Shown in pieces: positions 43,661 to 61,433 of a stretch of DNA of 64,000 nt. Made by a program: the position numbers and the translations under genes. The stretch comes from Terriglobia bacterium (GTDB taxonomy: Bacteria > Acidobacteriota > Terriglobia > Acidiferrales > UBA7541). The notes under the pieces are model-generated. The model was not told the DNA's origin. It saw nothing but the letters and a program-made list of their open reading frames with translations, and did not search any database. The DNA lies in contig JAIQFB010000020.1 in the NCBI GenBank assembly GCA_020073485.1, positions 1-64,000 of the forward strand, read 5' to 3'. Position 1 is the first letter of the stretch, and each line of letters opens with the position of its first letter.

Positions 43661-43819
43661 CTTTAATTTAGGCGGGCTCACCTTCCTGCGTCTGGATAAG
43701 CAGGCAGAGCCAGCACCCATTCTTTATATCACCGTACACATGCCCGCGCCGAGGCTTGCAATCCCCTGCCGCATGGGAAAAGATGGTTGATCGGTGGCTG
43801 GCGTCGTCAGGAGGCGTGT

Positions 43820-46800: not shown

Positions 46801-47239
46801 GCTCAATCCAGCGTCGGCCACCGTCGCTTCGTCCCTATTGACGAGTTTTTTTACCGCGGGTTTGGTGGGGCTGGCCGCCGGTTTGATTGCCGCGTATGTT
46901 CATCCGATGTGGATGCGCAGCGGGATCCTGGTCCTTTACGCCGTGCTCATGTCCAGCAATGTGGCGACGCCCGGAGCATTTTTTCGCGAAGCGGCGTACC
47001 GCCTTGTTGCGGTGGCCGTGCTGTGGATGGGCGTGACGCGGATCGTGCGATTCAACACCATGGGTTATTTTCTGCTTTCGGCGATGATCGCGCTGGTGCC
47101 CGGCGCGGTGGATTTGTTGCAGCAGCCTAATTCCTATTTCCACGCGAACGGCTACATCGTGGTTGCGTTTGCGATCGCGACGCTGGCCTGGCCGGCGATT
47201 TGTTGGAGACGCGGTTCAACATCGGCGCAACCATCTTGA
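43820..47239 (+). CDS. Giant CPBP-type intramembrane protease with internal duplication
   Basis: About 1139 residues, far larger than ordinary CPBP proteins (200-350). The start TTG 43820 has a close AGGAGG; TTG 43787 is an alternative. The N-terminal half has one TM, an extracytoplasmic domain (about 40-235), then a multi-TM CPBP (Abi) domain. Its motifs are SEEFLFR (EExxxR type, near residue 425), FAWGFLH (His) and TWHYTVDA (His), the expected glutamyl-type active site. The C-terminal half repeats the architecture: an extracytoplasmic domain clearly related to the first ('EYLRRAIGISAANRVYRE' against 'TYLEREVGLEGANQMMRG') and another multi-TM region that lacks EExxxR. Substrate is unknown. 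Confidence 0.82.
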   Translation: MRLERLDGKDVRVLLIWILAGLIGAGVAYKYFYRAFPEASVDFKVPRADALEQARQFAGAQGARLDGYDSSIVFDVDDTAKTYLEREVGLEGANQMMRGSLHIWYWQTRFFRPLQKEEFDVRVDPAGGVVGYTHVLEETATGARLERAAAQAAAESFLRDTLHLDLSRYEFREEEANSTERPNRRDWSFSWELRGFRAKDAPYRLNVTLAGDHVDGYNEFLKVPEAWERDYQRLRESNNLFEYIALLPYAFLIGGCLYIIVSLGRRGLLEWRAGLLLAAFLAVLYFVMTMNQWPLDRAAYDTNTPYSSFFLSQVGKAAFISVLSAVLVLLAIVPGEPLYRVSQPGKIRLGAGLRLPGIRTKEFFSANVIGVCLAAAHTGYITVFYIFSRKLGAWAPQDLQYSDIVSTPLPWVSALCIGIYAATSEEFLFRLFAIPYMQRLTKSRWLAVVVPAFAWGFLHSNYPQEPAYIRGIEVGLMGIVAGLVMLRWGIWATLTWHYTVDAFLISTSLLRSHGAYLRVSGAIVGCGALIPLGVAAFFYLSRGGFVADAALLNSARPIGGPRPEAAPGAAEESAPETVPETAPAEVSKGYVAMSTRALGALVVCGLAGLALLAGVKSEAIGDFVRFQIDEKQAAALSEQALRDIKIDPATYRRVATIVYTFDGFTNEYLRRAIGISAANRVYREQVPSAFWSVRYFRDSQNEEYRVILKPDGTLHSVHHTLDEKTSGANLTKEEALARAEAYLRDQKKLNLSPWKLVDAQTDQKPARTDHTFEWEQASALDAASGEQGAHIRVHLQVQGAEVSGYRIFIKIPQAWLDAENRDTPGQLAQTYGRGIGMSVILVAVLIILFRNLKNPDLARVPWRRLAKWSLWVLAAAIVILANQIPQVLQEYATTMPLSVYYASQSILRFFGLSIDLAGAVLLLGIAWFFLERAFGPGRIPAWTGMPPAYYRDAFCVAAFGSAAVMGLGHLPGLFARWPLLRHALSASVPGTLDMLNPASATVASSLLTSFFTAGLVGLAAGLIAAYVHPMWMRSGILVLYAVLMSSNVATPGAFFREAAYRLVAVAVLWMGVTRIVRFNTMGYFLLSAMIALVPGAVDLLQQPNSYFHANGYIVVAFAIATLAWPAICWRRGSTSAQPS

Positions 47240-47308
47240 AGATTCGGACCGCGCAGCGAAGATGTCTTCCAATCTGCGACCGCACCATCTGTGGGGCCGG
47301 CACGGTTT

Positions 47309-47385
47309 GGTGGCACAGGCTTCAGCCTGCGCGGTTTTAATTTTCTGCCTCGCGGAACAGCGCACAGGCTGAGGCCTATGCCACA
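47309..47385. repeat. Family B inverted pair between convergent genes
   Basis: GGTGGCACAGGCTTCAGCCT (about 47309-47328) and CGCACAGGCTGAGGCCTATGCCAC (about 47361-47384) form an inverted pair between the CPBP gene and the permease gene. It resembles the pair at 40709-40782. Confidence 0.7.
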
Positions 47386-47395
47386 AAGACTCGCT

Positions 47396-48739
47396 TCACG
47401 TCCCTTTTTTCCGCAGGACTAACTGGCTCAGAAGATAAAATCCCGCGCCGGCTACGACGATGCCGATGCCGATGGCCAGTTCGCTGGTCGATCCGACCAG
47501 TTCGGCGCGATTGCGGGCCATGGCCGCGATCATCAACGCCATGGGCGGCACGCCGATAGCGATCGCACCCACGGTGCCGCCGGGAACGCGAAACGGCCGC
47601 GCCAGTTCCGGCTCGCGAATGCGCAGCGCCACCAGAGCCCAGAATTCCAGCAGGATGCTCAGCCCGGTCAGCAGGACGTCCAGGATGAGGCTCTTCTCAA
47701 AACCCAAAGGGAAGCAGATCGCCCAGAGAACCGCGCACACCAGGATGGCCACCCAGGGCGCGCCCTTGCGATCGATGCGCGTGAAAATGCGCGGAAGATA
47801 CCCATCTTCGGCCATCACCAGCGGCAGCCGCGTGAACGAGAGCATGAGCGCGCTGAACGATCCGATTGCGCCGATCACTCCGGCGACCGCAATGGCGATG
47901 GCCAGCGTCTCGCCTCCGATGATGTGCGCGACGTCCACCCAGCCTCCTGTCGTCCAGCTGTTTGGATCTATTCCCGTGCGCGCCACCGCGCCCACGGGCA
48001 GCACATAGCTCACGACAACCAAAATTACCGCGCCGAACATGGCGCGGGAATAGGTGCGCTGCGGCGCTTCCACTTCGCCCGCAATGGTCGAAAGATTGTC
48101 CCAGCCCATGTAATTCCACATGGCGATGAGCACGCCGCCGAGCAGGTCTACGTGGCGCAACGGAACCTGCGCGACATCGCCCGGGGCCCGCTCGATTCCC
48201 AACGCGAAAATAATCAACGCCACGAACGGCACGAGCAGGGCGATGTTGAGCCACACGGAGCCTTCGCCCACCGAATGCACACCGAAAAGATTCCACGCCG
48301 TGCACAGCGCGATCATTGCGAATCCCAGGATAAGTCCGCGGTGCCCGGAGACAAGTCCCGGCAGGAATCGCCCGATGTAGGCGATGCACAGGTTCGGGTA
48401 CAGCGCCATTTCAAAAATGCTGCCCGCCAGCGTCAGCCATGTTTCCTGAAATCCCCAGAAGCGGCCCATGCCGCGGCGCACCCAGACGTAGAAGCCGCCT
48501 TCCTCGGGAATCGCCGTCGCCAGTTCGCTGACCATCAGGGCGGTGGGCAGACTCCAAAGCAAAGGCGTGATCACCAGGATCAGGAGCGTGGCGGCGTAGC
48601 CTGTCTTTTCGACGATATCTTCGAGTCCGTACGGGCCGCCGGCGACCATGAAATAGGTAGCCGTGATCATGGGCACCACGGAAATCTTGCTCAAGGATTT
48701 CAGGCCGCTTTTTGTGGCGCCACTTTTTGGAGAGTTCAT
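47396..48739 (-). CDS. APC-family amino-acid permease
   Basis: A 447-residue inner-membrane transporter with about 12 TM helices. The N-terminus 'ISVVPMITATYFMVAGGPYG' contains the APC TM1 GGP-type substrate motif. Further landmarks are 'VSELATAIPEEGGFYVWVRR' in the TM2-TM3 region and 'MWNYMGWDNLSTIAGEVEAP' near TM6. The family carries amino acids or polyamines by cation coupling; the substrate cannot be told. It stands alone, converging with the CPBP gene. Confidence 0.92.
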   Translation of the reverse strand: MNSPKSGATKSGLKSLSKISVVPMITATYFMVAGGPYGLEDIVEKTGYAATLLILVITPLLWSLPTALMVSELATAIPEEGGFYVWVRRGMGRFWGFQETWLTLAGSIFEMALYPNLCIAYIGRFLPGLVSGHRGLILGFAMIALCTAWNLFGVHSVGEGSVWLNIALLVPFVALIIFALGIERAPGDVAQVPLRHVDLLGGVLIAMWNYMGWDNLSTIAGEVEAPQRTYSRAMFGAVILVVVSYVLPVGAVARTGIDPNSWTTGGWVDVAHIIGGETLAIAIAVAGVIGAIGSFSALMLSFTRLPLVMAEDGYLPRIFTRIDRKGAPWVAILVCAVLWAICFPLGFEKSLILDVLLTGLSILLEFWALVALRIREPELARPFRVPGGTVGAIAIGVPPMALMIAAMARNRAELVGSTSELAIGIGIVVAGAGFYLLSQLVLRKKGT

Positions 48740-48939
48740 AAAGGTCCGGTTCGATCTCAGGGCCCAATAACGCCAAAGCCGATGAGTCTTATACCATTCC
48801 CAATTCGGAAAGCGAAATGGATTGATCCTGGAGCGATTGTCTAATACATTCTGTTTGAACAGGTTAGCTGATGGAGTGGATGGACTGGCACCACCGGGAG
48901 CCGTCGCCTACCATTCCTCGCTTTCCTGCGTCTAATAAT
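48740..48939. promoter_or_regulatory. Upstream region of permease and sigma-factor genes
   Basis: A divergent space whose exact length depends on the sigma gene start. If ECF autoregulation applies, its promoter should lie here, but no clear ECF-type -35/-10 pair is recognisable to me. Confidence 0.45.
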
Positions 48940-49698
48940 ATGGAGTTCTCTGACGATCGCCGGCCGGGTTCACGAACAGTCGGGCCTTCGGGCCCGGGGT
49001 CGAACACCAAGATGGACGCTGACGGAATGACAATCGCATGGTCTGCCGACGGCTCGGGCGATACTGGGCCAGGATCCACCGCGTTCAGTTCGTCCACCAG
49101 GGCCTTGGCTGCTCCCGACGACCGCCTGCTGATCGAGCGCGCGCAGGGCGGCGACCGCGAAGCGTTTGAAGCGCTGGTGCACCGCTACGACCGCGACGTC
49201 CTGCGCATTGCCCTGAACATCCTGCACAAGCCCGACGACGCCCGCGACGTCTACCAGGAAGCCTTCCTCAAAATTTACAAGAATCTCCACCGCTTCCGCT
49301 TCGAGTGCAGCTTCTACACCTGGATGTACCGCATCGTGACCAACGTTTGCCTGGATTTCCTGCGCCGCCGCAAGAGCCGGCCGGAAGATCAGGCTCCGGA
49401 ACTTGCGATCAATCAAAAGGGAGAAGCGCCCGGCGCCGATTTTTTTGACCGGCAGCAGGACACGGGCGCGTCATCGAACCCGGAGCGGCGCCTGATGGGA
49501 ATGGAGATCGGCGCGCGAATTTCCAGGGCGCTGGAGCGGCTGACGCCGCGCGAACGCATGGTGTTTGAGATGAAGCATTACCAGGGATTGAAATTGCGTG
49601 CTATCGGAGACGCGCTTGGCACGTCTGAAGAAACGGTGAAGAACTCGTTGTTCCGCGCCACGCGCAAATTGCGCGAGCAACTGGAAGAATTGCTGTGA
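48940..49698 (+). CDS. ECF sigma factor (module 1)
   Basis: About 252 residues from ATG 48940. The start is uncertain, because in-frame ATGs at 48871, 49012 and 49027 also exist and none has a good Shine-Dalgarno. An N-terminal low-complexity stretch is followed by region 2 ('LIERAQGGDREAFEALVHRY', 'DDARDVYQEAFLKIYKNLHR') and region 4 ('LERLTPRERMVFEMKHYQGL', 'GTSEETVKNSLFRATRKLRE'). Such factors direct RNA polymerase to envelope- or stress-response promoters. A zf-HC2 anti-sigma gene overlaps its stop by the GTGA junction, a classical sigma/anti-sigma pair. Confidence 0.9.
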   Translation: MEFSDDRRPGSRTVGPSGPGSNTKMDADGMTIAWSADGSGDTGPGSTAFSSSTRALAAPDDRLLIERAQGGDREAFEALVHRYDRDVLRIALNILHKPDDARDVYQEAFLKIYKNLHRFRFECSFYTWMYRIVTNVCLDFLRRRKSRPEDQAPELAINQKGEAPGADFFDRQQDTGASSNPERRLMGMEIGARISRALERLTPRERMVFEMKHYQGLKLRAIGDALGTSEETVKNSLFRATRKLREQLEELL

Positions 49699-50777
49699 GC
49701 GAACATTTGCACAACCCGGAGGACGTGGACAACGCCTTGAACCGCGCGATGATTGTTCGCTGCGAAGACATCGAGGCGCTGGCGATCCTGTACGCGTGCG
49801 ACGATCTCGATGCGGCCGCGCGCGCGGCGCTTGAACAGCACGTGAAGCAATGCGCTGCTTGCGCCGCCGTTTTTTCGCGCGAAGCCAGGTTGTACCAGGC
49901 CATCGCGTCGTTCGACCAGCCCGCCGATTCTCTCGATCGCGCCGGCCTGCTGCTGGCCGAGTGCCGCAGCCAACTTGCGGAAGCGATTGACGATCATGAG
50001 GCCAAACGCAATCAGCCCGGCTGGCGCCCCGTGTTCTCCCCCGCGGCGTGGTGGTCGGTGGTTCGCGATACGCTGATCTATCATCCGGCGATGAGCATGG
50101 CCGCGCTGGTGATCGTAAGTTTCCTTGCGGGTGTGGCCGGCCAGCGGACGCAGGTCGCCTCCACGCCCGTTGCACCGCGGCCGGTGATGACGGTTTCCGC
50201 CGTTCCGAAAATCACCGACCAGCAACTGCATAGCGCGCAGAGCGCCAGCGTCGGCTGGGTGACGCCCTCGGATTCACGCACGCCCACCGTGCAGGTGCAG
50301 CTAATGTCGCCAACACCCACCAGCATCGAGGGCGCGCCCGAAGACGCCGACGTGGAGCGCGCGCTGACCTTTGTTTTGGAAAACAGCCGGCAATTCGATC
50401 CGGGCGCGCGCATGGATTCGCTGAATGTGCTGCGCACCCTCGCTGGCGACCCCGAAGTCCGGCGCTCGCTGTGCGGCGCGGCCCGATCGGACACCAATCC
50501 CGGCGTGCGCATGAGGGCGCTGGAATCACTTCAGGGGTTCGAGCAGGATCCGGCCGTGCGGCAGACGATTCTGGACGCGCTGCAAAACGACGCCAATTCC
50601 GGGGTGCGCGTTTCGGCCATTAATCTCTTGCTGAATTCCCTGGAAACCGGGAACGAACCCGGATCGGCGGATCCACAGACGCTGGCCGTGCTGCGCGATC
50701 GTCTGCGAAACGATTCCAACAATTACATTCGACTGCAAAGTGCCGCGGCATTGCGGGATCTCGGCGCCGGGAAGTAG
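49695..50777 (+). CDS. Anti-sigma factor with zinc finger and HEAT-like repeats
   Basis: A 360-residue single-pass membrane protein starting at GTG 49695, overlapping the sigma stop codon (GTGA). The N-terminal cytoplasmic zf-HC2 zinc-binding motif (HVKQCAAC, H-x3-C-x2-C) binds the sigma factor in this family. One TM lies at about 135-150 (MSMAALVIVSFLAGVAG). The periplasmic C-terminus has HEAT-like helical repeats (about 215-355, 'PEVRRSLCGAARSDTNPGVR', 'PAVRQTILDALQNDANSGVR'), an unusual addition that probably senses or binds a partner. A DUF4097/TonB fusion gene lies 85 bp downstream behind a family B hairpin pair. Confidence 0.85.
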   Translation: MSEHLHNPEDVDNALNRAMIVRCEDIEALAILYACDDLDAAARAALEQHVKQCAACAAVFSREARLYQAIASFDQPADSLDRAGLLLAECRSQLAEAIDDHEAKRNQPGWRPVFSPAAWWSVVRDTLIYHPAMSMAALVIVSFLAGVAGQRTQVASTPVAPRPVMTVSAVPKITDQQLHSAQSASVGWVTPSDSRTPTVQVQLMSPTPTSIEGAPEDADVERALTFVLENSRQFDPGARMDSLNVLRTLAGDPEVRRSLCGAARSDTNPGVRMRALESLQGFEQDPAVRQTILDALQNDANSGVRVSAINLLLNSLETGNEPGSADPQTLAVLRDRLRNDSNNYIRLQSAAALRDLGAGK

Positions 50778-50851
50778 GACAGGTTTCAGCCTGTCGGGTT
50801 TCATTTTGCACGGCCGGAAATCAAAAGCGACAGGCTGAAGCCTGTCCTGCT
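50775..50851. repeat. Family B inverted pair within the sigma operon
   Basis: AGGACAGGTTTCAGCCTGTC (50777-50796) and GACAGGCTGAAGCCTGTCCT (50829-50848) are inverted copies. The first begins at the TAG stop codon of the anti-sigma gene. The stem could attenuate read-through into the DUF4097 gene. Confidence 0.75.
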
Positions 50852-50862
50852 AAATTCACTCC

Positions 50863-52680
50863 ATGACGAATTGGCGAATACATTTTGGGGGAGCGATCGT
50901 GGCTCTCGCGGCCACGTCGTCTCTACTGGCTACGCCTGCGAACGCCGCGCCTGCGAACCCCTGCTTCGCCGATTCCACATTTGTCTCGCTGGAAACTGAG
51001 TTACCGGTCGATCCCGCCGATTCCGCGCCACTGCTTTCCATGGAAAGAACAGGCGCGATTCCCGTAAAACAAGGCCTTCGCATTCGAGTGAACGCCGATC
51101 CCGGCAACGTCCACATTTTCACGGACGAGACCACACAGGTTTCCTACCTGGTCCGCGTGGAAGCGGACTCCCGCGAGCCCAGCGCGCGCGAATTTCTCGA
51201 ACAGTTCAAGCTAACGGCGCGGCCCGCGCCCTGGGGCGTTTCCCTGGAGGGAAATGTGCCATGGCGCGAGTTCGGCGGGCGTTTCCGCGTGGTCTATGAG
51301 ATCCATGTCCCGCACCGGAGCAACGTCGAGGTTCACACGCTCGGCGGAAATATCGAGCTGCAGGATCTCGATGGCACCGCGGACTTGTCCACCGAGGGAG
51401 GAAATATCACGGCGGGCAGTGTGGGCCTCGCTCCGGCGGCGCCTTCCAAATCCTTGCCAAAGGCCGCGGCAAATCACGTTGCGGCAAAGCTGGAAACGAT
51501 GGGCGGGCACATCGCAATCGGCGATGTTGCCGGCACGCTGCGCGCAACCACCTCCGGCGGACACATCACTGCCGGAAATATCAGCGGCGACGCTTATCTT
51601 CACACGGACGGCGGGCTGATCCGCGCGGGCCGGATTTCGGGAGCGGCCGAACTGGAAACCGGCGGCGGCAACATCCACGTGCAAAGCGCCGCGTCGAACG
51701 TCATCGCCGATACGGCCGGCGGAGAGATTGATTTTGGCGAAACCTCCGGAACGATTCGCGCGCGCACGGGAGGCGGATCGTTGCGGATTGCGCACGTCAC
51801 CGGGGCCACGGCGGTGGAAACCAGCGGCGGAATTTTTCTGGGACAAGTGGACGCGCCCCTGCGCGTTTCGTCCACGTCGGGTAACGTCACCGCGTGGCTC
51901 GCCGATCCTTCCGGGCGCGCCGTGCCCATTGCCGCTGAAAATTCAAAAAATACGCGCAAACTTCCCGAAGCTTCTCAATTGTCGTCGGACGACGGCGATA
52001 TCGTTGTGTACATTCCGCGCGAGATGGCCGCGACGATCGACGCGGTCGTTGAAGAACGCAGCGGTGGACACAGAATTATCGCCGACCCTTCCCTGCCGCT
52101 GCAGGTCAGCTACCAGGACTCCAGCGTGGGTCCCCGCTCGATTCATTGCGCTGGCGAATTGAACGGGGGCGGAGAAGTTCTTCACCTTCGAGCGGTGTCC
52201 GGCAACATCATCTTGAGGTCCGGCGACCCTCAAACGGATGTAAGCGCCGCGCCGCCCATGCGCCGCAGGGAGCGCGAACGCGGCGATGCTTCCGCCATGC
52301 TCGCGGCCGCGAGTTCCAATGAGCCGGAAACCAACTACGACGCCTCCGGATTTTTCGCGCAAATCCGCCGCATGATTGCGGAATCCTGGTGGGGCGGCGT
52401 GCCGGTCGACGCCGATGAAATGCAGCAGCGCCTGGAACACTCGGTGGCGCCTGTCTATCCGGACGTCGCGCGCAAGGCCGGCATCGAAGGCGACGTGGTC
52501 CTGCGCGTGAGCATTTCAGAAGATGGCCGCGTGACAAACCTGGAAGTCCTCGACGGCCCGCCGGTTCTGGCGCGCGCCGCAGTGAACGCCGTGCGGCAAT
52601 GGCGCTATCGCGCATGGATTATGAATGGCCACCCGGCCGCCGTGGTGACCACGCTGGTTGTTTCGTTCCGTCTGCACTAA
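50863..52680 (+). CDS. DUF4097 adhesin-like domain fused to TonB C-terminal domain
   Basis: A 605-residue exported protein: signal peptide (about 1-28, 'LLATPANAAP'), an N-terminal part (about 70-160) with 'LRIRVNADPGNVHIFTDETT', then a DUF4097-type repetitive beta-strand region (about 160-460) with recurrent 'GGNI', 'TSGGHITAGNISGD' and 'TGGGNIHVQSA' turns that would form a beta-helix. The C-terminus (about 530-605) is a TonB C-terminal domain ('YPDVARKAGIEGDVVLRVSI', 'AAVNAVRQWRYRAWIMNGHP'). No TM follows the signal, so it cannot act as a normal TonB. The fusion suggests a periplasmic protein linked to TonB-receptor or envelope contacts, regulated by the upstream sigma pair. Confidence 0.82.
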   Translation: MTNWRIHFGGAIVALAATSSLLATPANAAPANPCFADSTFVSLETELPVDPADSAPLLSMERTGAIPVKQGLRIRVNADPGNVHIFTDETTQVSYLVRVEADSREPSAREFLEQFKLTARPAPWGVSLEGNVPWREFGGRFRVVYEIHVPHRSNVEVHTLGGNIELQDLDGTADLSTEGGNITAGSVGLAPAAPSKSLPKAAANHVAAKLETMGGHIAIGDVAGTLRATTSGGHITAGNISGDAYLHTDGGLIRAGRISGAAELETGGGNIHVQSAASNVIADTAGGEIDFGETSGTIRARTGGGSLRIAHVTGATAVETSGGIFLGQVDAPLRVSSTSGNVTAWLADPSGRAVPIAAENSKNTRKLPEASQLSSDDGDIVVYIPREMAATIDAVVEERSGGHRIIADPSLPLQVSYQDSSVGPRSIHCAGELNGGGEVLHLRAVSGNIILRSGDPQTDVSAAPPMRRRERERGDASAMLAAASSNEPETNYDASGFFAQIRRMIAESWWGGVPVDADEMQQRLEHSVAPVYPDVARKAGIEGDVVLRVSISEDGRVTNLEVLDGPPVLARAAVNAVRQWRYRAWIMNGHPAAVVTTLVVSFRLH

Positions 52681-52926
52681 GGCGCGGCAACGGATTCGAC
52701 TCCTCGCACTATCACCACATTCCAATTAAGATGACCTTTTCGGCCTCTAAAATGCGAGCGCGTGCGTCAACCATTTAAGATTTCTTGTGCGGATAAAAAA
52801 AAGCGCCCTTGAAAACCGCAAGGACGCGGCACCCAAGCTTCAAAACCAGTCTAAGGCTAACCCAGCAACGCGAATCGGTAATCGGGGGCTCGAACCACAG
52901 ATCCGAGCCCCCTTTTCATGCGCAAT
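52681..52926. other. Intergenic region with terminator and possible small RNA
   Basis: A 246-bp space between convergent genes. The stretch about 52780-52920 is GC-rich with several complementary segments and ends in a good intrinsic terminator. It could be the 3' UTR of the DUF4097/TonB gene or a small RNA. No coding frame is supported. Confidence 0.5.
52884..52916 (+). terminator. Rho-independent terminator
   Basis: GGGGGCTCG (52884-52892) pairs perfectly with CGAGCCCCC (52904-52912) around an 11-base loop, followed by TTTT on the plus strand. It terminates the DUF4097/TonB transcript or a small RNA. Confidence 0.8.
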
Positions 52927-53991
52927 CTACTTGAAGGTGATCTTGGTGACGTCCCATTCCGAGCAGGAGCCGCGAATGAGTTCGTTGTCGTTGACGGCGT
53001 AGAGTTCGTGGATAATGCAGCCGGTCTGGCCCATGCCCATTCCGGATTGGATCCAGCCGAGCAACTTACCGTCGTGATCCAGGCGGTAGATTTTGCCTGT
53101 GCCGTCGCCGCTGTAGATGTATTTGGGGGTGACCTGGACGGACCACGGCGCGCCTACTCCGCCGATGGATTTCTTGAAGTTCAGGTCGTAGTCATACACC
53201 TGGATGCGGAAATTGCCGCGATCGGCAACGTAGACGTTGCCTTGCGCGTCGGTGGCGATGCCGTGCGGCGTGCTGAACTGATTTTCGCCGTTGCCGTGCG
53301 TGCCTACCGCCTTCTGCCAAACGCCGTCCTTGGAGATCTTGACGACGCGCGAGTTGCCGTAGCCGTCGCTGATGTACATGTTGTCCTGCGGATCCCAGGC
53401 GATGTCGGTTTCGCGGTTGAATGTGCCCATGTTTCCGACCGGATAGCGTTCAGTGACTTTCTCACCCCGTTCGATATAGCGCTCCATGTAGTCGATGGCT
53501 TCGGTCTTGCGGCCGAGCGTCATGCGGACGATGCCGTTGGGATCGAACTTGACGATCATTCCGGAACCTTCGTCGACCATCCAAACGTTGTCGTACTTGT
53601 CGTTGCGCACGGAGTGAGCGAAGGACGCGGCGTAGTTGTCCGGTCCCCACATCTTGACGAATTTATAATTCTGGTCGAACTCGAACAGCTCCGCGGCCGT
53701 GCCGCCGCGCGAGCTGCCGCCCTTGCCGGTGCGCGAGTACACAAACAGGTGGCCCTTGGAGTTCAGGGAAACCCCTTCGGTTTCGCCGATGGTGTGATCG
53801 GGGATCGTGAGGGGGAGAACTTCCTCAGTGAACTTCAACTGGGGGGTCGCCGCCTCCAGGGCGAGTTGCTTGGCGATGGCCGCCTGGCGCTCCGGGCTGG
53901 GAGGGCCGAACTGAGCCTTGACCTTCAGCGCCCCGACGCCCAGCACGGCGCCAAACGCAAATAGAGACACTACCAATGAGTTACGTTTCAT
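52927..53991 (-). CDS. Secreted NHL-repeat six-bladed propeller protein
   Basis: A 354-residue exported protein starting MKRNSLVVSLFAF at 53991 behind GAGGAGA. A signal peptide (about 1-25, ending 'KVKAQ') is followed by NHL/beta-propeller repeats with 'DNVWMVDEGSGMIVKFDPNG', 'DNMYISDGYGNSRVVKISKD' and 'QGNVYVADRGNFRIQVYDYD'. Such propellers resemble the peptidylglycine amidating-lyase type, but the lyase metal ligands cannot be verified by eye. It is more likely a binding or scaffold protein. It follows the RND pump gene on the same strand, 200 bp away. Confidence 0.85.
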   Translation of the reverse strand: MKRNSLVVSLFAFGAVLGVGALKVKAQFGPPSPERQAAIAKQLALEAATPQLKFTEEVLPLTIPDHTIGETEGVSLNSKGHLFVYSRTGKGGSSRGGTAAELFEFDQNYKFVKMWGPDNYAASFAHSVRNDKYDNVWMVDEGSGMIVKFDPNGIVRMTLGRKTEAIDYMERYIERGEKVTERYPVGNMGTFNRETDIAWDPQDNMYISDGYGNSRVVKISKDGVWQKAVGTHGNGENQFSTPHGIATDAQGNVYVADRGNFRIQVYDYDLNFKKSIGGVGAPWSVQVTPKYIYSGDGTGKIYRLDHDGKLLGWIQSGMGMGQTGCIIHELYAVNDNELIRGSCSEWDVTKITFK

Positions 53992-54193
53992 ATCCTGAAT
54001 CTCCTCTCCGAGATGAGCGTCCCGCCGGAACTGGCCCGGCCGGTTCTGACCCGGATTGCCGTTTGATCCACCCGAGGCGCGCAATGCTACACCCAAATGC
54101 TCGTCCCGCGGGAATTTTTATAAACAAGCCCTCGCCGCGGAGCTTTCCGGAGGGACGGCACGGCCTGCCGCGCCTGTTGGCTAGAAATCTAAC

Positions 54194-57100
54194 TTAGACA
54201 GGCGGCATCCCTTTGATGGGCGCTGCCGAATGGGGGGATCCCTGGCCTTCGAGAAAGCCGGCGTGCTTGCGCCGCCGGAAGCGCAATTGCAGGCGGTCCA
54301 TATAGAGGTAAATTACCGGAGTCGTATAGAGAGTCAGGACCTGGCTGACCAGCAAGCCGCCCACAATGCTGATGCCAAGCGGGCGGCGCATTTCCGAGCC
54401 GGTGCCGGTCATCAGCGCCAATGGCAATCCGCCAAAAAGCGCCGCCATCGTGGTCATCATGATCGGGCGGAACCTCAGCAGGCAGGCCTGATAGATCGAT
54501 TCCTCCGGGGTCTTTCCCGTGCGCTCTTCTTCCACCGCGAAGTCGATCATCATGATGGCGTTTTTCTTGACGATGCCGATCAGCAGGATGATTCCGATGA
54601 TCGCAATCACGGTCAGTTCGGTGCGGAAGGCCAGCAAGGCCAAAAGCGCTCCCACGCCGGCCGACGGCAGCGTCGAGAGAATCGTGACCGGGTGGATATA
54701 ACTTTCATACAGCATGCCCAGGACGATGTACACGGTGATGAGCGCGGCCAGGATGAGCCACGGCTGTGTCGACAGCGAAGACTGAAAGGCCTGCGCATTT
54801 CCCTGGAAGGTCGGATGGATATCCGCCGGGAGTCCCATGTGCAGGACGGCTTGCTGGATTGTGGTCACGGCGTCGCCCAGTGCCACGCCCTCGGCAAGAT
54901 TGAACGAGATAGTTACGGCGGGAAACTGCCCCTGATGGTTCACCGAGAGCGCCGTGTTTCTGGTCTCGTAGTGGGTAAAGGCGCTGAGCGGGATCTGACT
55001 GCCATTGGACGATCTTACGTAAAGTCCGCGGATGGCGTCGGCGCTGTTGCGAAAGGCCGCGTCCACTTCCATCACCACGTGATACTGATTGAGCTGCGTG
55101 TAGATGGTGGACACCTGGCGCTGGCCGAAGGCGTCGTAGAGCGTGTTATCGATGGCTCGGGGTGAAATCCCCAATCGCGAAGCGGTGTCGCGGTCAATCG
55201 CGAGGTTCGCCTGCAAGCCGTTGGTTTGCTGGTCGCTGGCAATATCGCGCAACTGTGGTAGCTGCCTCATCTGTTCCGCCACGCGAGGCGCCCATTCCAG
55301 CAAGTCAGCGAGATTTTCGCTCGACAGAGTGAATTGATATTGCGAACTGCTGATGCGCCCGCCGACGGTGATGTCCTGATACGCACGCAGGAACAGTGTG
55401 GCCCCCGGAACCGTGGCGAGCTTGGGCCGCAGGCGCGAAATCACCTGATAGACGCTAACGTCGCGCTGGTTGAGCGGCTTGAGTTCGATCTCCATGCCGC
55501 CCGTATTTTCCGCGCCGCCCCCGGTTTCGCCGATCATGCTTTTGATCGCAGGGTCGCCTATCACGATATCGGTATACTGCTTCAACTTCTGCTGCATTGC
55601 GGGGAAGGAAGTGTCCTGCGCTCCCAGCATATTTCCGGCGATCAGCCCGGTGTCCTGCTGGGGGAAAAATCCCTTGGGGATGGCGACATACAAATAGAGG
55701 CTTAAACAGATCGTCGCGCCCGTAACGGCGAGCATGAAGGGCTGGTGGCGCAGAACCCAGCGCAGGCCCGCGGCGTAGGTCTCCACGGCCCAGAGAAACA
55801 CGCGCTCGCTGGCCTGATACAGTTTCCCGTGCTTGATTTCCCTTTCCGATTTCAGGAACTGCGCGCACATCATGGGCGTGGTAGTGAGCGACACGCACAG
55901 GGAAACGGCGATGGCCACGCTCAAGGTGACCGCGAATTCCCGGAAGAGTCTTCCGATGACACCGCCCATCAGCAAGAGCGGAATAAATACCGCGATCAGG
56001 GAAAGGCTCATCGACAGGACCGTGAATCCGATCTCGCGCGAACCCTTCATTGCCGCTTGTACGGAAGAATCCCCGGCTTCGAGATAACGGGAAATGTTTT
56101 CGATGACCACGATCGCGTCGTCCACCACGAATCCGGTGCAGATCGCCAAGGCCATGAGAGAAAGATTGTCGAGGCTGTAATGCAGCAGGGACATCACGCC
56201 GAACGTGCCAATGATGGACAGAGGCACGGCGATGCTCGGAATTATCGTGGCCCATGCATTTCGCAGGAACAGAAAAATCACCATGACCACCAGCGCGACC
56301 GTCAACAGCATGGTGAATTCGATATCCTTGACGGACGCTCGAATGGTGGTGGTGCGGTTGAAATTCGTGCCGATCTCGACCGTGGGCGGGATGGAGGCGC
56401 GCAATTCCGGAAGCAGGGCCATGATGCTGTCCACGGTTTCGATGATATTGGCGCCTGGTTGGCGTCCGATGCCCATGGTCACTGCAGTTTTGCCGTCGGC
56501 GTAGGCGGAGTTGCGAACGTCTTCGATTCCTTCCGTCACCGTCGCGATGTCGCTGAGCCGGACGGGAGCCCCATTTCTATAAGCAATAATCAGCGGCACG
56601 TACTGCTCGGGTTTGAGAAGCTGGTCGGTGTCGTTCACCAGCCAGCGGTTGGTGCCATCTTCCACACTGCCCTTCGGAGAGTTCGCATTGGCCGACCCGA
56701 GCGCGGCGCGTACTTCCTCCAAACCGATCCCATAATGCGCCAGCGCGTTCGGATTGACGTCCACACGAACCGCGGGTTTGGCTCCCCCGGAAATCCGGAC
56801 CAGTCCCACGCCGGGCACCTGGGATATTTTTTGCGCCAGGAAGGAATCGCACAAGTCATACAGGCGGCCTCTGGAAAGCGTGTCCGAGGAAACGTCCAAA
56901 TCCAGAATGTCTGATTCGGCGGGATTCACTCTGCGGTAAGTGGGCAAGGTGGGCAGTCCGGCGGGTAATTGTCCCGCGGCAGCATTGATGGCCGCCTGGA
57001 CGTCGCGCGAGGCGGCGTTGATGTCGCGATCCAGATCGAATTGCAGGACGATTCCCGTGGTGCCCAGCTGGCTGGTGGACGTCATCTGCGTGACGCCCGC

Positions 57101-57322
57101 GATGCGCCCGAACTGGCGCTCGAGCGGCGTGGCCACGGCCGAAGCCATGGTTTCCGGGCTTGCGCCCGGGAGCCCGGCGCGAACAAAAATGGTGGGGAAA
57201 TCAATGTGGGGCAGAGCTGCGACGGGAAGAAAATAGAAGCCCACGCCGCCGGCAAGCAGTATCGCAACACTCAGTAAGGAAGTGGCAATGGGCCGCCGGA
57301 TGAATGGCGCTGAGATATGCAT
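54194..57322 (-). CDS. RND-family efflux pump inner-membrane subunit (MdtB/MdtC type)
   Basis: A 1042-residue proton-driven transporter of the AcrB/MdtB family. It has 12 TM helices in the usual 1+5 and 1+5 arrangement with two large periplasmic loops. The proton-relay Asp pair sits in TM4 (VVDDAIVVIENI, D401/D402). The N-terminus (SAPFIRRPIATSLLSVAILL) and 'FPTIFVRAGLPGASPETMAS' match multidrug RND pumps. No membrane-fusion or outer-membrane channel gene is in the window, so it is an orphan or partners elsewhere. Substrate is unknown. Confidence 0.93.
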   Translation of the reverse strand: MHISAPFIRRPIATSLLSVAILLAGGVGFYFLPVAALPHIDFPTIFVRAGLPGASPETMASAVATPLERQFGRIAGVTQMTSTSQLGTTGIVLQFDLDRDINAASRDVQAAINAAAGQLPAGLPTLPTYRRVNPAESDILDLDVSSDTLSRGRLYDLCDSFLAQKISQVPGVGLVRISGGAKPAVRVDVNPNALAHYGIGLEEVRAALGSANANSPKGSVEDGTNRWLVNDTDQLLKPEQYVPLIIAYRNGAPVRLSDIATVTEGIEDVRNSAYADGKTAVTMGIGRQPGANIIETVDSIMALLPELRASIPPTVEIGTNFNRTTTIRASVKDIEFTMLLTVALVVMVIFLFLRNAWATIIPSIAVPLSIIGTFGVMSLLHYSLDNLSLMALAICTGFVVDDAIVVIENISRYLEAGDSSVQAAMKGSREIGFTVLSMSLSLIAVFIPLLLMGGVIGRLFREFAVTLSVAIAVSLCVSLTTTPMMCAQFLKSEREIKHGKLYQASERVFLWAVETYAAGLRWVLRHQPFMLAVTGATICLSLYLYVAIPKGFFPQQDTGLIAGNMLGAQDTSFPAMQQKLKQYTDIVIGDPAIKSMIGETGGGAENTGGMEIELKPLNQRDVSVYQVISRLRPKLATVPGATLFLRAYQDITVGGRISSSQYQFTLSSENLADLLEWAPRVAEQMRQLPQLRDIASDQQTNGLQANLAIDRDTASRLGISPRAIDNTLYDAFGQRQVSTIYTQLNQYHVVMEVDAAFRNSADAIRGLYVRSSNGSQIPLSAFTHYETRNTALSVNHQGQFPAVTISFNLAEGVALGDAVTTIQQAVLHMGLPADIHPTFQGNAQAFQSSLSTQPWLILAALITVYIVLGMLYESYIHPVTILSTLPSAGVGALLALLAFRTELTVIAIIGIILLIGIVKKNAIMMIDFAVEEERTGKTPEESIYQACLLRFRPIMMTTMAALFGGLPLALMTGTGSEMRRPLGISIVGGLLVSQVLTLYTTPVIYLYMDRLQLRFRRRKHAGFLEGQGSPHSAAPIKGMPPV

Positions 57323-57571
57323 GGGGGTTAACTCAGCATGTTAGTCCAGGTCCGCTTCCACAATCTAACCAAATAATTAGGATAGTCGAGATGTGAACTA
57401 ACTTTCGCATAACCGCCTCTTTGGCCCATATGTTGAGGTTCCCGACGGTCTGGGAATGGTAAGCCGTCTCCCTGAAAGTTATCTGAATTCGCGCCCGCAA
57501 TTGGAGCGCGCACTGTATTCCGTCGCCGCCGGCCAAACGAGGCGGCAAGGCTACTGATTTGGAATGGTGGG
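57323..57571. other. Upstream region of the RND pump, no gene seen
   Basis: This 249-bp space lies between the pump start and the 3' end of the aroK-linked gene on the same strand. It is relatively A/T-rich at about 57355-57395, where the pump promoter should lie. No clear motif stands out. Confidence 0.45.
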
Positions 57572-58330
57572 TTATTCCCGTTGGATAGTTACTTTTGAAA
57601 AAGGGACATCGATGCGCACCAGGCGGTGATTGGCGTCCAGGTAAAGCAGAATTTCCAGGTCCGTGGAACTGACCCGCATGGCTGTGTAGGTTGCATTTTC
57701 GACCTGCTGCGGGCCAATCGACTCCACTGAAATGCTTCCCGGAGTCAGGTCCTGCGGGATCACGACGGGAAAAGTCTGCTTTCCGCCGACCTTCCAATCG
57801 TACATTTGCGCGAGCACGGCGTACTGGTGGTAGAGATTGTTGTCGAGCACGGCGATATGCGGCGTCTCGAACTTGAAGTCCTTCATCAACGGCGAGGCCG
57901 CTCCCATGCTGGCCGAGCATTTCGCCGTGCCGTTGTCAAAATCTACGATCCCGGTGGCTTTTTTCTGCGCTTCGGCCGACCACTGGTACCGAATGGGCGA
58001 GCCGTCGGCGGAAAGTTTGAGCTGGCCGTTCGCCTTGATGTCCGTGCCTCCGGGCGCGTGCGCCGTGGTCGAGCCATGCGCCGTCCAGGTGTCGCCCGTT
58101 CGCGAAATCTCAAACTCTTCCTCGCCGAGGGCTTGGCCATCGAGCAGGATGCGGAATTTTCCCTTGTCCGGCGTAAAGACACCCGCCGCAGCAACGGCCG
58201 GCACGCTTTTTTCTTTTTGAGGGGCAGAGCGCGGGCTAGGCGCCGCGGCGATTTCCGCGATTCCAGCTGCCAGGGTGAGAACAACCAACCACACAAGCGA
58301 TGGCGTGCGAGTTGTTGTCGCGAATCTCAT
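57572..58330 (-). CDS. Exported protein of unknown function coupled to aroK
   Basis: A 252-residue protein whose start ATG (58328-58330) overlaps the aroK stop in an ATGA junction. A signal peptide (about 1-30, ending 'IAEIAAA') precedes a beta-rich domain with 'GKFRILLDGQALGEEEFEIS', 'LKLSADGSPIRYQWSAEAQK' and 'LEILLYLDANHRLVRIDVPF'. It resembles acidobacterial DUF6134-like or lipoprotein-localisation-factor-like folds, but I cannot name the family. Translational coupling suggests it is made in step with AroK. It is the last gene of the sigma module 2 operon. Confidence 0.75.
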   Translation of the reverse strand: MRFATTTRTPSLVWLVVLTLAAGIAEIAAAPSPRSAPQKEKSVPAVAAAGVFTPDKGKFRILLDGQALGEEEFEISRTGDTWTAHGSTTAHAPGGTDIKANGQLKLSADGSPIRYQWSAEAQKKATGIVDFDNGTAKCSASMGAASPLMKDFKFETPHIAVLDNNLYHQYAVLAQMYDWKVGGKQTFPVVIPQDLTPGSISVESIGPQQVENATYTAMRVSSTDLEILLYLDANHRLVRIDVPFSKVTIQRE

Positions 58331-58959
58331 ACGATCGAAGCTCCGGGCAATTTTCCGTCCGCGGGCGCGCCCGCGGAGCGGCCGAAGATACCGAGGGCGA
58401 GAATCTGCTCGACCACCCGGATGGGCTCTCCGCCGCTCGCGACGCGGTAGTCCGCCTGCTGATAATACGGCAGGCGTTCCTGATAGAGCTTGCGAAAACT
58501 GCTTTCGTCGCGGAACAAAGGCCGGCCGCCCATCAGGACGCACCGCTGCAGCAATTCCTCCATGGGGCAATCGAGCCAGACCAGGACTGCGCCGGAACCC
58601 TGCGGAGACAAACCCGATTCACGCAGCAGCGCGGCGTTGCGAGGCTGCGCAAATGTGCCACCGCCGAGCGCCAGAACCAGGCGCGTGTCGCGCTCGGATA
58701 CCGAACCCAGAATGCGTACAAGGCATTCGTGCTCGATATCGCGAAATACCGCTTCGCCTTTCTGCTCAAAAATTTGGGAAATGGGAAGGCCGGTGAGGCG
58801 CTCGATTTCGTCGTCCAGGTCGATGAAGCGCCAGGCCAACTGGGCGGCCAGCAGGCGGCCCACCGTGCTTTTGCCTGAGCCCATGAAACCGGTCAGGCAA
58901 ACCAAACGGCATTCCGGGACAGGCCCCGAGGGCTTGTATGATGGAGAAAGTTCCTGCAA
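58327..58959 (-). CDS. aroK: Shikimate kinase
   Basis: A 210-residue kinase that phosphorylates shikimate at the 3-OH in aromatic amino-acid synthesis. Motifs are Walker A GFMGSGKSTVG, the shikimate-binding 'DLDDEIE' and 'FRDIEHE', the Walker B-like 'LVLALGGGTF' and the lid 'MGGRPLF'. The C-terminal 20 residues extend beyond the usual length (about 170-180). The DUF4097 gene ends 15 bp upstream and the gene after it overlaps, so aroK lies inside an ECF sigma/anti-sigma operon, an unexpected place for a core biosynthetic gene. Confidence 0.95.
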   Translation of the reverse strand: MQELSPSYKPSGPVPECRLVCLTGFMGSGKSTVGRLLAAQLAWRFIDLDDEIERLTGLPISQIFEQKGEAVFRDIEHECLVRILGSVSERDTRLVLALGGGTFAQPRNAALLRESGLSPQGSGAVLVWLDCPMEELLQRCVLMGGRPLFRDESSFRKLYQERLPYYQQADYRVASGGEPIRVVEQILALGIFGRSAGAPADGKLPGASIV

Positions 58960-58974
58960 GCGGTTCCGAGCGCG

Positions 58975-59850
58975 CTAATCGCGCTTCAGAATTTTAATTG
59001 TACCACTAAAGGAAGTGAGCTCGACCTTGGCGTGTCCGTCGTTCATGGTGCCAAACAGGCTATGCCCGAATTTGGACTCCGCATGAGGGCTTCCGTGCGT
59101 GTCCGGCTTGAAGGAAGCCTGGTTGATCACGTCGCCCTTCAGCGAGTTGGCGCGCACGTCGAACGAATCGCTGGAGGAGAAGTGAACTTCGATGGTGCCG
59201 CTGAAATTCTTCATGATGTAAATGCCGCGGCTCAAAAAGCTGCCGTCGAACAGGATGTTTCCGGAGGAAGTCTGTACGCGCACGCTGTCGAGAGAGGGGT
59301 CGACCATCTGCATGTTGCCGCTGATGGAGTTGGCTTCCAGTTTTCCGGAGCAGCGCGTGCAGACCAGCGAGCCGTCGATGGTCTTGGCCACGATGTAGCC
59401 GTTCACGTCGGTGAGCTGCAGGTTCGCGCCGACGGTGTCGAAGGTCATGTCGCCGTGCACGCTCTCGACGGTCACGTTCCCGGAGTCGGTGCGCACGTTG
59501 AGCTCGCTCTCGACCGGAACGGTAATATCAAAATCCGTCTTGAGGTCGCTGGCGGAAACCTCTCCGGTATCCTGCGTCGCGATCTCCACGCGGTTCCCGG
59601 CCTCCTCGGTTTCCACGGCATTCTTGCCGCTGCCGTTGGTCCAGGAGACCAGAACTTCGTTCTTGGTCCAGGCCTTCACCTGAATCCGCCCGTTGGAATT
59701 CCGCACCGTGATTTTGGGTTTGGCTTGCACGACAAAATGTTTCTCGGCGCGATCGGCGGGATCGGCCTTCGCGGGAGAAGCGGACAGGACCAGCCCTGCC
59801 ATCACCAAACCGAGTGCACCAGCCTTGATAACGTTGCAAGATACGCTCAC
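58975..59850 (-). CDS. DUF4097-family exported adhesin-like protein
   Basis: A 291-residue protein starting at GTG 59850, overlapping the anti-sigma stop by GTGA. A signal peptide (about 1-29, ending 'ASPAKA') is followed by a DUF4097 beta-helix-like domain with repeated short strands ('ITVRNSNGRIQVKAWTKNEV', 'LNVRTDSGNVTVESVHGDMT', 'SGKLEANSISGNMQMVDPSL'). It is shorter than, and lacks the TonB domain of, the related protein at 50863-52680. The function of DUF4097 proteins is not established, but they recur with ECF/anti-sigma pairs. Confidence 0.88.
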   Translation of the reverse strand: MSVSCNVIKAGALGLVMAGLVLSASPAKADPADRAEKHFVVQAKPKITVRNSNGRIQVKAWTKNEVLVSWTNGSGKNAVETEEAGNRVEIATQDTGEVSASDLKTDFDITVPVESELNVRTDSGNVTVESVHGDMTFDTVGANLQLTDVNGYIVAKTIDGSLVCTRCSGKLEANSISGNMQMVDPSLDSVRVQTSSGNILFDGSFLSRGIYIMKNFSGTIEVHFSSSDSFDVRANSLKGDVINQASFKPDTHGSPHAESKFGHSLFGTMNDGHAKVELTSFSGTIKILKRD

Positions 59851-60533
59851 TGCAGTCCTCCCGTCACATTACGATTCATGGCCGTGGCCAGCAATTCGGC
59901 TTTCTGTTCATAGGCCCCGTACAGGTATTCGCGCGCCATCTCGTTGTCCGGCTGTTCGCGGACACTGTTTTCACACATGGCGATAAAATGGTCAACGACG
60001 CTCAGGTTGCGCCGGAACGAATCGGTCACGGCGGCGTTCTGCTGCCGCAATTCCGGAAGCAAGGCATTTCCGAACGCCTGAGACTCTTCCTTGAATTCTT
60101 TTTCCGCCGAGAGAATCGGAGCGCTGTCCGACAGGGGCGCCAGCGGCGAATGCACCGCCATCGGTGCGGAGCCCGATTGATAACCGACCAGGGCGGCCGC
60201 GGCAAGAATTAAGGAGAGAAAAGCGCCGGCCAGAGCGGGGCGCTGGAACGCGGCCCACCATCCGGGCTTCAGGCTTGCCGCCACCGGGCGCTGGGCGTTT
60301 TGAATTTCTTCCGCATCGATCTGGTTGCGCAGGGAAATCCACACGCGTTCGGGAACCGGAAGTTCCTCGGCGCCTAGCTCCAGCGCGGCGTCGCGAATCG
60401 CGCTGAGATCGGCGGCCAGAAAGCGGCACGATTCGCAATCCTCCATGTGGGCTAGCGCGGGTTGCGGCAGCGCGGCTTCGTCCTGCTGTTCCAGAATCCG
60501 TTCAAATTCATCGCACTTGATTTTCGTCGTCAT
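59847..60533 (-). CDS. zf-HC2 anti-sigma factor (module 2)
   Basis: A 228-residue single-pass membrane protein; the start ATGACGACG at 60533 has a CAGGAAAG ribosome-binding site, and an ATG at 60554 is less good. The N-terminal HMEDCESC (H-x3-C-x2-C) zinc motif matches zf-HC2 anti-sigma factors. The TM lies at about 100-120 (ALAGAFLSLILAAAALVGYQ). The periplasmic part is helical ('EFKEESQAFGNALLPELRQQ') without the HEAT repeats of the module 1 homologue. It lies 85 bp after the sigma gene and overlaps the DUF4097 gene. Confidence 0.9.
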   Translation of the reverse strand: MTTKIKCDEFERILEQQDEAALPQPALAHMEDCESCRFLAADLSAIRDAALELGAEELPVPERVWISLRNQIDAEEIQNAQRPVAASLKPGWWAAFQRPALAGAFLSLILAAAALVGYQSGSAPMAVHSPLAPLSDSAPILSAEKEFKEESQAFGNALLPELRQQNAAVTDSFRRNLSVVDHFIAMCENSVREQPDNEMAREYLYGAYEQKAELLATAMNRNVTGGLQ

Positions 60534-60618
60534 TGCTTTCCTGTTCCACTTCATTCCTGCATTTTTCCAATTCCGATTCCACTGCCTGGGTTCCCATTCC
60601 AGGAAATGCTCCCGAAAC

Positions 60619-61230
60619 CTAGGCGGATCCGCCGGCTTCGGATTTCGCGGCCTGGCGTTCCTGCCGCGCCTGGTTCCGCAGGGTTTCCTGCAAGAGTTCC
60701 CTCAAGCGCATGCGCGCTTTGTGCAATTGCGATTTCGAGTTTCCGATCGAGCAACTCATCAGCCCCGCGATTTCATTGTGCTCAAAGCCCTGGATATCGT
60801 GCAGCACGAACACCTGCTTGTATCCGGGCGGCAACTGTTCGATGGCGCGTTCCAGGTGCACGCGGTCAATCGAGCCGGAAAGCAGCAGATCGGGTGCGCC
60901 AAGTTCCCTGCGCGGCCCGCTGTTCTCATCGTCGGGATCGTTGGTCTCATCCAGCGGAGTCTCCGCAAGAGTTTTCTTGCGAAGCTTCATCAAGACCACG
61001 TTGACGGCCAGGCGATGCAGCCAGGTGGAAAATGCGGACTCGCCGCGAAACGTCGCGATCTTGCGATACAACTGCAGAAAGGCGTCTTGCGTGAGATCCT
61101 CGGCCTCAGCCGTGTTTCCGACCATGCGCAGACACAACGCATAAACCCGCCGGCTATGAAGCCGGTAAATGCGTTCAAACGCGCCAGCGTCGCCCTGTTG
61201 GGCGAGGCGGATGGCCTCTGCCTCAGTCAT
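60619..61230 (-). CDS. ECF sigma factor (module 2)
   Basis: About 203 residues from ATG 61230; GTG 61263 is an alternative 11 codons earlier. Region 2 has '[20 protein letters not shown]' and '[20 protein letters not shown]'. Region 4 has '[20 protein letters not shown]' and '[20 protein letters not shown]'. The C-terminus is Arg/Gln-rich. It is clearly of the same broad ECF class as the sigma at 48940 but not a close copy. It heads the sigma-anti-sigma-DUF4097-aroK-unknown operon. Confidence 0.93.
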
Positions 61231-61433
61231 ATCGCTGGTATCGGTTTGTCTCGTGCGGGTCACCGTACCCGTCGGGACGCATCCGAGTTCTGGTTGTGGG
61301 ATGCCACCCTGCCTCCGTGAGTTGCATTCATTTAGATTCGATTGTGTTGGATTGGTTTCGATTACCCGGCCTATTTGCCCCGCTTACCCTGGATAGCCCG
61401 GTTTCCGCAAACATCGCAGCCGCTATTCCGTAT

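Follow-up and report, generated by a model that had tools for sequence, protein, structure and literature searches.

Two facing sigma factor modules

We analysed a 64-kb stretch of contig JAIQFB010000020.1 (hereafter the window) from a Terriglobia bacterium with a genome of 5.05 Mb (G000). Its DNA and open reading frames (ORFs) hold the same three-gene order twice, on opposite strands: a sigma factor of the extracytoplasmic function (ECF) type, a putative membrane anti-sigma factor and a protein with a DUF4097 (Toastrack) domain. We refer to these triplets as module 1 (with sigma1 and anti-sigma 1) and module 2 (with sigma2 and anti-sigma 2). An earlier reading of the same DNA, the original prediction, had noticed the doubled gene order together with GTGA overlaps between sigma1 and anti-sigma 1 (49695–49698) and between anti-sigma 2 and DUF4097 (59847–59850); both observations agree with the ORFs and the DNA. 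It had also placed the genes correctly (Table 1), apart from two starts. The sigma1 frame is open from 48871, and the start assigned earlier, 48940, lies 5 bases past the −10 element; because the conserved promoter ends at 48935, the start is probably the ATG at 49012. Since relatives conserve the stretch upstream of 61230 as protein, sigma2 probably starts at the GTG at 61263 and not at 61230. Two features had been overlooked, namely the HEAT repeats of anti-sigma 1 and the continuation of module 2 into aroK and a DUF3108-like gene, which makes it a tight run of five genes.

Table 1. Features of the two modules and of the DNA between them, in window coordinates
Feature	Position	Strand	Remarks
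Predicted sigma1-type promoter, CYTACC-N16-CGTCTAA	48907–48935	+	upstream of sigma1
sigma1, ECF sigma factor	49012–49698	+	Pfam Sigma70_r2/r4; TIGR02937, 125.5 bits
anti-sigma 1 (putative): zinc domain, one transmembrane segment (131–149), HEAT repeats (predicted periplasmic)	49695–50777	+	
Repetitive extragenic palindrome (REP)-like double palindrome between anti-sigma 1 and DUF4097-TonB	50773–50851		inverted repeat I1
Module 1 DUF4097 (Toastrack) protein, modelled as a beta-helix, signal-like N-terminus, C-terminal TonB_C	50863–52680	+	
Inter-module insert: NHL-repeat gene and resistance–nodulation–division (RND; AcrB-like) pump gene	52927–57322	−	
DUF3108-like gene, last of module 2	57572–58330	−	ATG overlaps aroK stop
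aroK (shikimate kinase)	58327–58959	−	Pfam SKI, 130.8 bits
Module 2 DUF4097 (Toastrack), signal-like N-terminus	58975–59850	−	Pfam, 42.8 bits
anti-sigma 2 (putative): zinc domain, one transmembrane segment, C-terminal tail of ~110 residues (predicted periplasmic)	59847–60533	−	
sigma2, ECF sigma factor, GTG start	60619–61263	−	Pfam; TIGR02937, 97.9 bits
Predicted sigma2-type promoter, TGCAACTC-N14-GCATCC, then inverted repeat	61299–61326	−	

The two modules had been described as related in plan without being recent duplicates, and this description stands. The sigma factors are 31% identical over 190 columns, the anti-sigma factors give no significant alignment with each other, and the two DUF4097 families are related at the profile level. 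Because the modules are this distant in sequence, we conclude that they share a plan, and a recent duplication of one into the other is ruled out. They had also been called independent, which the relatives described below do not support.

Conservation of the paired locus

Of 41 genomes, 33 have a near full-length match (E < 1e-30) to the module 2 DUF4097 protein, a count that includes the genome of the window. In the stretches around this match in 32 relatives (the relatives' loci), a shikimate kinase gene always adjoins the DUF4097 gene, a DUF3108 ortholog is found in 30, and sigma2 and anti-sigma 2 are found in 31, the contig ending in the remaining one; the module 2 gene order is kept in the same number, 31 of 32. 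In 22 of the 32, module 1 genes converge on module 2 from the other strand. The gap from the last module 1 DUF4097 gene to DUF3108 is usually 1–1.5 kb and is mostly filled by a gene for a tandem-PDZ protein, which in one locus (L060) ends up 52 bases from DUF3108; in L050, from the window's genus, the inter-module gap is 296 bases. The NHL and RND pump insert of the window recurs only in L048 among the relatives' loci and lies outside the conserved locus. Within the stretches covered, each module is also seen by itself; in four class-level relatives (L074, L077, L078 and L079), the stretches taken contain module 2 and no module 1. The pairing of the two modules is not accidental.

To describe module 1 more broadly, we scanned named genomes with the alignment of the HEAT anti-sigma factor and kept the best 80 of 263 relatives (the named loci). 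Their titles read Acidobacteria, Terriglobia, Acidiferrales, Terriglobales, Bryobacterales and the like; one anti-sigma factor, in JAIQFG010000005.1 (Terriglobia bacterium isolate SRVP_21), is 88% identical to that of the window. A sigma factor gene lies directly upstream in 76 of the 80 named loci, and a DUF4097 gene follows within 600 bases in 71 (72 have at least 1.5 kb downstream). A second, shorter DUF4097 gene is present in 46 of 80, a PDZ gene in 53 of the 60 with at least 5.5 kb downstream, and sigma2 converging on module 1 in 21 of 80. The full module 1, widespread in Acidobacteriota, is a sigma factor, a HEAT anti-sigma factor, one or two DUF4097 proteins and a tandem-PDZ protein, and the module in the window is a reduced form of it. 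A strict pairing of PDZ and second DUF4097 genes is rejected: the PDZ gene lacks this companion in many loci, and the reverse is seen in some. In the window's own genome, DUF4097 matches are limited to the two known genes, and PDZ matches elsewhere are weak and partial, one of them lying within an HtrA gene (L149, L340).

Some neighbouring features deserve mention. In the closest relative, an ORF for an exported-looking protein of 649 amino acids follows the module 1 DUF4097 gene (L048, 5124–7073); the corresponding interval of the window (52680–52927) leaves no room for a counterpart. Upstream of sigma1 (43787–48739), the window carries genes for a membrane protein of 1150 amino acids and a permease, which also occur in L052 and L053; the conserved neighbourhood may therefore reach further. 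A REP-like palindrome, GACAGGCTGAAGCCTGTC, is found at 40712–40777, 47314–47331 and 50778–50846, one pair lying inside the module 1 operon. With up to three mismatches it has seven matches in the window, some being one place read on both strands, versus none in shuffled sequences.

Domain architecture of the module proteins

Both sigma factors of the window match Pfam sigma-70 regions 2 and 4 and score well above the TIGR02937 cut-off of 42.9 bits (Table 1), which classifies them as ECF sigma factors. The original prediction had assigned the anti-sigma factors to zf-HC2. The Pfam gathering score supports this for neither protein: anti-sigma 1 reaches 18.5 bits against a threshold of 22.2, and anti-sigma 2 of the window has no match even at E ≤ 1, a level at which 20 of 21 anti-sigma 1 and 10 of 31 anti-sigma 2 family members are recognized. 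What does hold is the zinc motif, a Cys followed by His-x3-Cys-x2-Cys, which is invariant in all 21 anti-sigma 1 and all 31 anti-sigma 2 sequences aligned (1 of 22 and 1 of 32 sequences, respectively, were left out of the alignments). Its residues are C23, H49, C53 and C56 in anti-sigma 1 and C14, H36, C40 and C43 in anti-sigma 2. By motif, both are putative zinc anti-sigma (ZAS) factors. Hydropathy predicts a single transmembrane segment in each. HEAT_2 was found in all 21 anti-sigma 1 proteins scanned, and the predicted structure of anti-sigma 1 (model m9485aee225fe) has a mean predicted local distance difference test score (pLDDT) of 77.6 and a predicted TM-score of 0.54.

The module 2 DUF4097 protein clears the PF13349 cut-off of 22.9 bits (Table 1). 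Its module 1 counterpart scores 22.1 bits, just below it; among 20 aligned orthologs, 17 match PF13349 at E ≤ 0.001, the window's protein included. This protein is modelled as a beta-helix (mean pLDDT 79.7). A Foldseek search with the model gave 4qrk as the best hit (E = 1.4e-6), with a low target TM-score of 0.33; that for 3pet is 0.41, and root mean square deviations are 10–18 Å (reference fold 4qrk/4opw). At its C-terminus the protein carries a TonB_C domain (66.8 bits), a fusion shared by 9 of the 20 aligned orthologs and by 29 of the 80 named loci. The window's genome holds 14 further matches to TonB_C-type domains. All 15 aligned second DUF4097 proteins of relatives match Pfam. PDZ types are recognized in all 18 aligned members of the tandem-PDZ family, and a protease domain is absent from the 12 Pfam families found over these 18 members. 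The DUF3108 match in the window is weak (22.1 versus 26 bits). AroK is the only shikimate kinase match of the genome.

Predicted export and conserved C-terminal tails

The DUF4097 and PDZ proteins look exported. By a hydropathy rule, export-like N-termini are found in 21/23, 15/16 and 30/33 members of the three DUF4097 families and in 17/17 PDZ proteins, versus 1/19 and 0/32 of the sigma factors. The TonB_C domain works in the periplasm, and its fusion to DUF4097 therefore points to export as well.

In two of these families V, L or I is the usual last residue. Counting complete proteins from the named loci, it closes 42 of 45 sequences of the second DUF4097 family (V in 39) and 50 of 60 of the PDZ family (I in 34). 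Such ends occur in 0/80 anti-sigma 1, 2/74 first DUF4097 and 0/22 module 2 DUF4097 proteins, and in 10.9% of 478 other ORFs. Clustering the second DUF4097 proteins at 70% leaves 13 groups, the usual last residue being V in 11 and L in 2. In loci with a second DUF4097 gene, 19 of 37 PDZ proteins end in TNI or TSI; in loci without one the ends vary more, with L or I in 15 of 24. PDZ domains bind C-terminal residues, according to PMC8103513, and we therefore propose a PDZ–tail contact, the tails of both families resembling PDZ ligands.

Promoters and predicted targets

Each operon has its own conserved, predicted ECF-like promoter. The sigma1 motif, a CYTACC-type box followed after 15–16 bases by CGTCTA, is present in all 17 upstream stretches that were cut for the 19 sigma1 genes. 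The sigma2 motif, CAACT or CAACC followed after ~15 bases by GCATC, is present in 27 of 32 loci, the window counted. We built weight matrices from these promoters and applied them to held-out named loci of other genomes, with 380 unlabelled genes as background. At 12 bits, the sigma1 matrix recognizes 59 of the 62 sigma1 genes held out (2 of 380 in the background). It also recognizes 11 of 51 PDZ genes (0 of 380). At 16 bits, the sigma2 matrix recognizes 8 of 8 held-out sigma2 genes versus 2 of 380, and has no match before 61 sigma1 genes.

Two further elements lie upstream of sigma2. At or just past its −10 element (61263–61305), an inverted repeat GCATC...GRTGC is present in 24 of 27 loci (~6% expected by chance), a candidate operator or leader hairpin. 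In relatives, a TAGACG-N17-GAAAAT block is a candidate second, constant promoter for aroK; this gene, as the genome's sole shikimate kinase match and inside an apparently ECF-controlled operon, may therefore need one. We had first read the block as a reverse ECF site, and a housekeeping-type promoter seems likelier. Visual inspection of the window and L048 had suggested a leader peptide before sigma2, which was dismissed, its frame not being kept in L049 or L050.

Beyond the locus, candidate targets emerged for sigma1. Of 16 matches to a looser sigma1 pattern, counted by hand in eight genomes, five are followed after ~65–90 bases by a gene of the HtrA type, with trypsin and PDZ domains (G006, G010, G015, G017 and G022). 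Four others are at the locus itself, one precedes a BON-domain gene (L316) and five lie elsewhere, three of which were scanned and encode an ABC transporter, a MacB-type protein and an M61 peptidase. When the best HtrA match of each of 30 relatives was taken, 12 had a sigma1 site of at least 12 bits versus 0 of 380 background genes; leaving out the four loci that had prompted the idea, the count is 8 of 26 (G017 is not among the 30). We had initially read the sigma factors as targeting only themselves, with almost no site beyond the locus; the HtrA-type genes behind the sigma1 motif led us to withdraw that reading, and a link between HtrA and sigma1 is suggested by sequence only. The BON-domain gene is a possible further target, its sigma1-type site lying 49 bases upstream (L316, 711–1322; G023); L317, from a genome of the same genus (G011), also has a sigma1-type site and looks similar. 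For sigma2, the 30 loci inspected included 22 matches inside ORFs and showed no repeated target.

Association of DUF4097 with sigma factors across the phylum

Of 60 genomes sampled evenly across the phylum, 56 have a DUF4097 match, and we took 80 DUF4097 regions from the top of the match list. The original prediction would have been refuted had DUF4097 genes elsewhere shown no association with sigma/anti-sigma pairs, and the tabulation does not have this outcome: in 28 of the 80 regions, the 4.5 kb upstream include an ECF sigma factor gene in the same orientation. About 1% would be expected, given 24 matches to sigma region 4 in a genome of 5.05 Mb. In 25 of these 28, a zinc or HEAT anti-sigma factor is recognized between the two. 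The corresponding P value is about 1e-34, or 4e-18 if the genome held 100 ECF sigma factors, the regions not being fully independent. The link is strong and not exclusive.

A possible envelope quality-control circuit

We consider module 1 to be an envelope quality-control circuit organised like RpoE–RseA–RseB of Escherichia coli without being a member of that system, a reading to which we give a probability of roughly 60%. The locus would then hold two separate ECF envelope-response circuits, face to face. In each, the cytoplasmic zinc domain of the membrane anti-sigma factor would hold the sigma factor. The outer part of the anti-sigma factor would read a periplasmic condition, through the HEAT repeats in module 1 and through the tail in module 2. 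Once set free, the sigma factor would transcribe its own operon; in many relatives sigma1 may also act on the adjoining gene for the tandem-PDZ protein, and in some on a gene outside the locus for a periplasmic protease of the HtrA type. Exported Toastrack, PDZ and HtrA proteins would be the output, which is why we read the circuit as envelope protein quality control. DUF4097 appears to be at least an output, because it lies behind the sigma factor's own promoter. We also suspect that Toastrack or PDZ proteins feed back on the anti-sigma factor at its outer part, as RseB does on RseA; their contact with it and the nature of the signal are guesses.

A number of observations weigh against this interpretation, among them the 52 of 80 sampled DUF4097 regions in which no ECF sigma factor lies upstream. 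The window's genus lacks the second DUF4097 and PDZ genes, and the HtrA gene of the window's genome has no sigma1 site (6.5 bits), as is true of 18 of the 30 HtrA genes. Predicted promoters precede no more than 11 of the 51 PDZ genes, and five of the 32 loci (L072, L074, L075, L076 and L079) have no sigma2 motif. The sigma1 matrix is also passed by module 2 genes (1/8 sigma2, 1/9 DUF4097 and 1/11 DUF3108 genes), these being single sites in L278 and L281. Across 41 genomes, the strict sigma1 pattern has 32 matches versus 165 for a reversed-pattern control, and the strict sigma2 pattern 124 (21 of them its own promoter) versus 164. The 16 looser sigma1 matches compare with 62 for the reversed control, and most of the remaining genome-wide matches looked coding or unrelated. 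The strict patterns being rarer than their controls, a large regulon of perfect sites does not exist. The hydropathy rule for export is crude and also flags 5 of 23 orf61 proteins. Finally, Ravi et al. 2024 (PMC11237479) predict an intracellular Toastrack.

How far do other explanations account for the locus? The 52 of 80 DUF4097 regions without an upstream ECF sigma factor (12 of the 80 have less than 2.5 kb upstream) would suit ordinary neighbours, triplets brought together by chance and without a joint function. We regard this as extremely improbable: the excess over expectation in the phylum-wide sample speaks against it, and the gene order, kept across orders, refutes it. A coupling of the kind found in phage shock protein (PSP) and Lia systems, with Toastrack as a cytoplasmic scaffold beneath the membrane that transmits membrane damage to the sigma factor, is what PMC11237479 proposes for Toastrack generally, and that paper also notes, in a different context, a sigma factor linked by operon; among NCBIfam families, LiaG matches the module 2 DUF4097 protein best, albeit far under the cut-off (33.8 versus 285 bits). 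The signal-like N-termini without a later transmembrane segment and the TonB_C fusions argue against such a scaffold, and the Pfam matches of ten window proteins include no PspA, PspC or LiaF-type protein, relatives having received no dedicated search. We judge it very unlikely.

The DUF4097 proteins might instead be plain effectors, for example beta-helix proteins of the envelope or surface made on demand, with sensing left to the anti-sigma factor. Their place behind the sigma factor's own promoter makes them an output under this explanation too, and relatives of solved structure bear titles such as putative adhesin or cell adhesion protein. The RseB-like position directly after the anti-sigma factor and the conserved C-termini with a PDZ partner, which suggests protein–protein signalling, point the other way, neither being a test. 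The effector explanation is possible, at odds well short of even. For the full module 1, the quality-control reading can be given a more specific and tentative form, which we hold to be rather unlikely as a whole. The PDZ-ligand tail of the second Toastrack protein (mostly R-[S/P]-x-V) would be bound by the circuit's PDZ protein, and the HEAT repeats of the anti-sigma factor would read the state of binding. The binder could be the tandem-PDZ protein, whose own tails are mostly T-[N/S]-I-like; it could also be the protease of the HtrA type that shares the promoter. The signal would be a free protein C-terminus, making the arrangement a counterpart of outer membrane protein (OMP) tails and DegS that evolved separately in Acidobacteriota.

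Little has been written on envelope signalling in the Acidobacteriota, which are common in soil. The sigma/HEAT anti-sigma/Toastrack/PDZ operon, with its promoter and the HtrA genes of some relatives, provides a named, testable unit, and DUF4097, a domain without assigned function and nearly ubiquitous in our phylum sample, gains a concrete context. The literature on DUF4097/Toastrack and on ECF, HEAT or PDZ anti-sigma systems, judged mostly by titles and abstracts, does not point to the operon.

Comparison with known systems

Module 1 resembles the RpoE–RseA–RseB system of E. coli with DegS and RseP in its operon order (sigma factor, membrane anti-sigma factor, periplasmic protein), in having its own predicted promoter and in the PDZ proteins of the circuit. 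Some relatives, the window's genome not among them, have an HtrA-type gene as a predicted target, and PMC8103513 counts htrA among the classic targets of E. coli RpoE. It differs in that a zinc anti-sigma domain with HEAT repeats or a tail replaces RseA, Toastrack takes the place of RseB, the PDZ protein of the operon lacks a protease domain and the promoter sequences are different. RseA and RseB domains are absent from the Pfam families listed for the anti-sigma factors (best 25 of 38 and best 25 of 27) and from those listed for the DUF4097 proteins. With these domains unrecognized and the PDZ protein devoid of a protease domain, we do not place the modules in the RpoE–RseA–RseB system.

With the PSP and Lia systems the modules share the Toastrack domain by Pfam, the Foldseek match to 4qrk having low TM-scores, and a linked sigma factor of the kind mentioned in PMC11237479. 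Here, however, Toastrack appears to be exported and is tied to pairs of ECF sigma and zinc anti-sigma factors; it is often fused to TonB_C and often followed by PDZ. These forms would be an exception to the topology given in PMC11237479, and they challenge an intracellular view of Toastrack domains.

With ECF/zf-HC2 (ZAS) pairs the modules share sigma regions 2 and 4 and an adjacent anti-sigma factor with the Cys...His-x3-Cys-x2-Cys motif and one transmembrane segment; the HEAT repeats of module 1, predicted to be periplasmic, and the conserved Toastrack and PDZ genes set it apart. We regard module 1 as a variant of the ECF/zinc anti-sigma kind that may work like the RpoE system.

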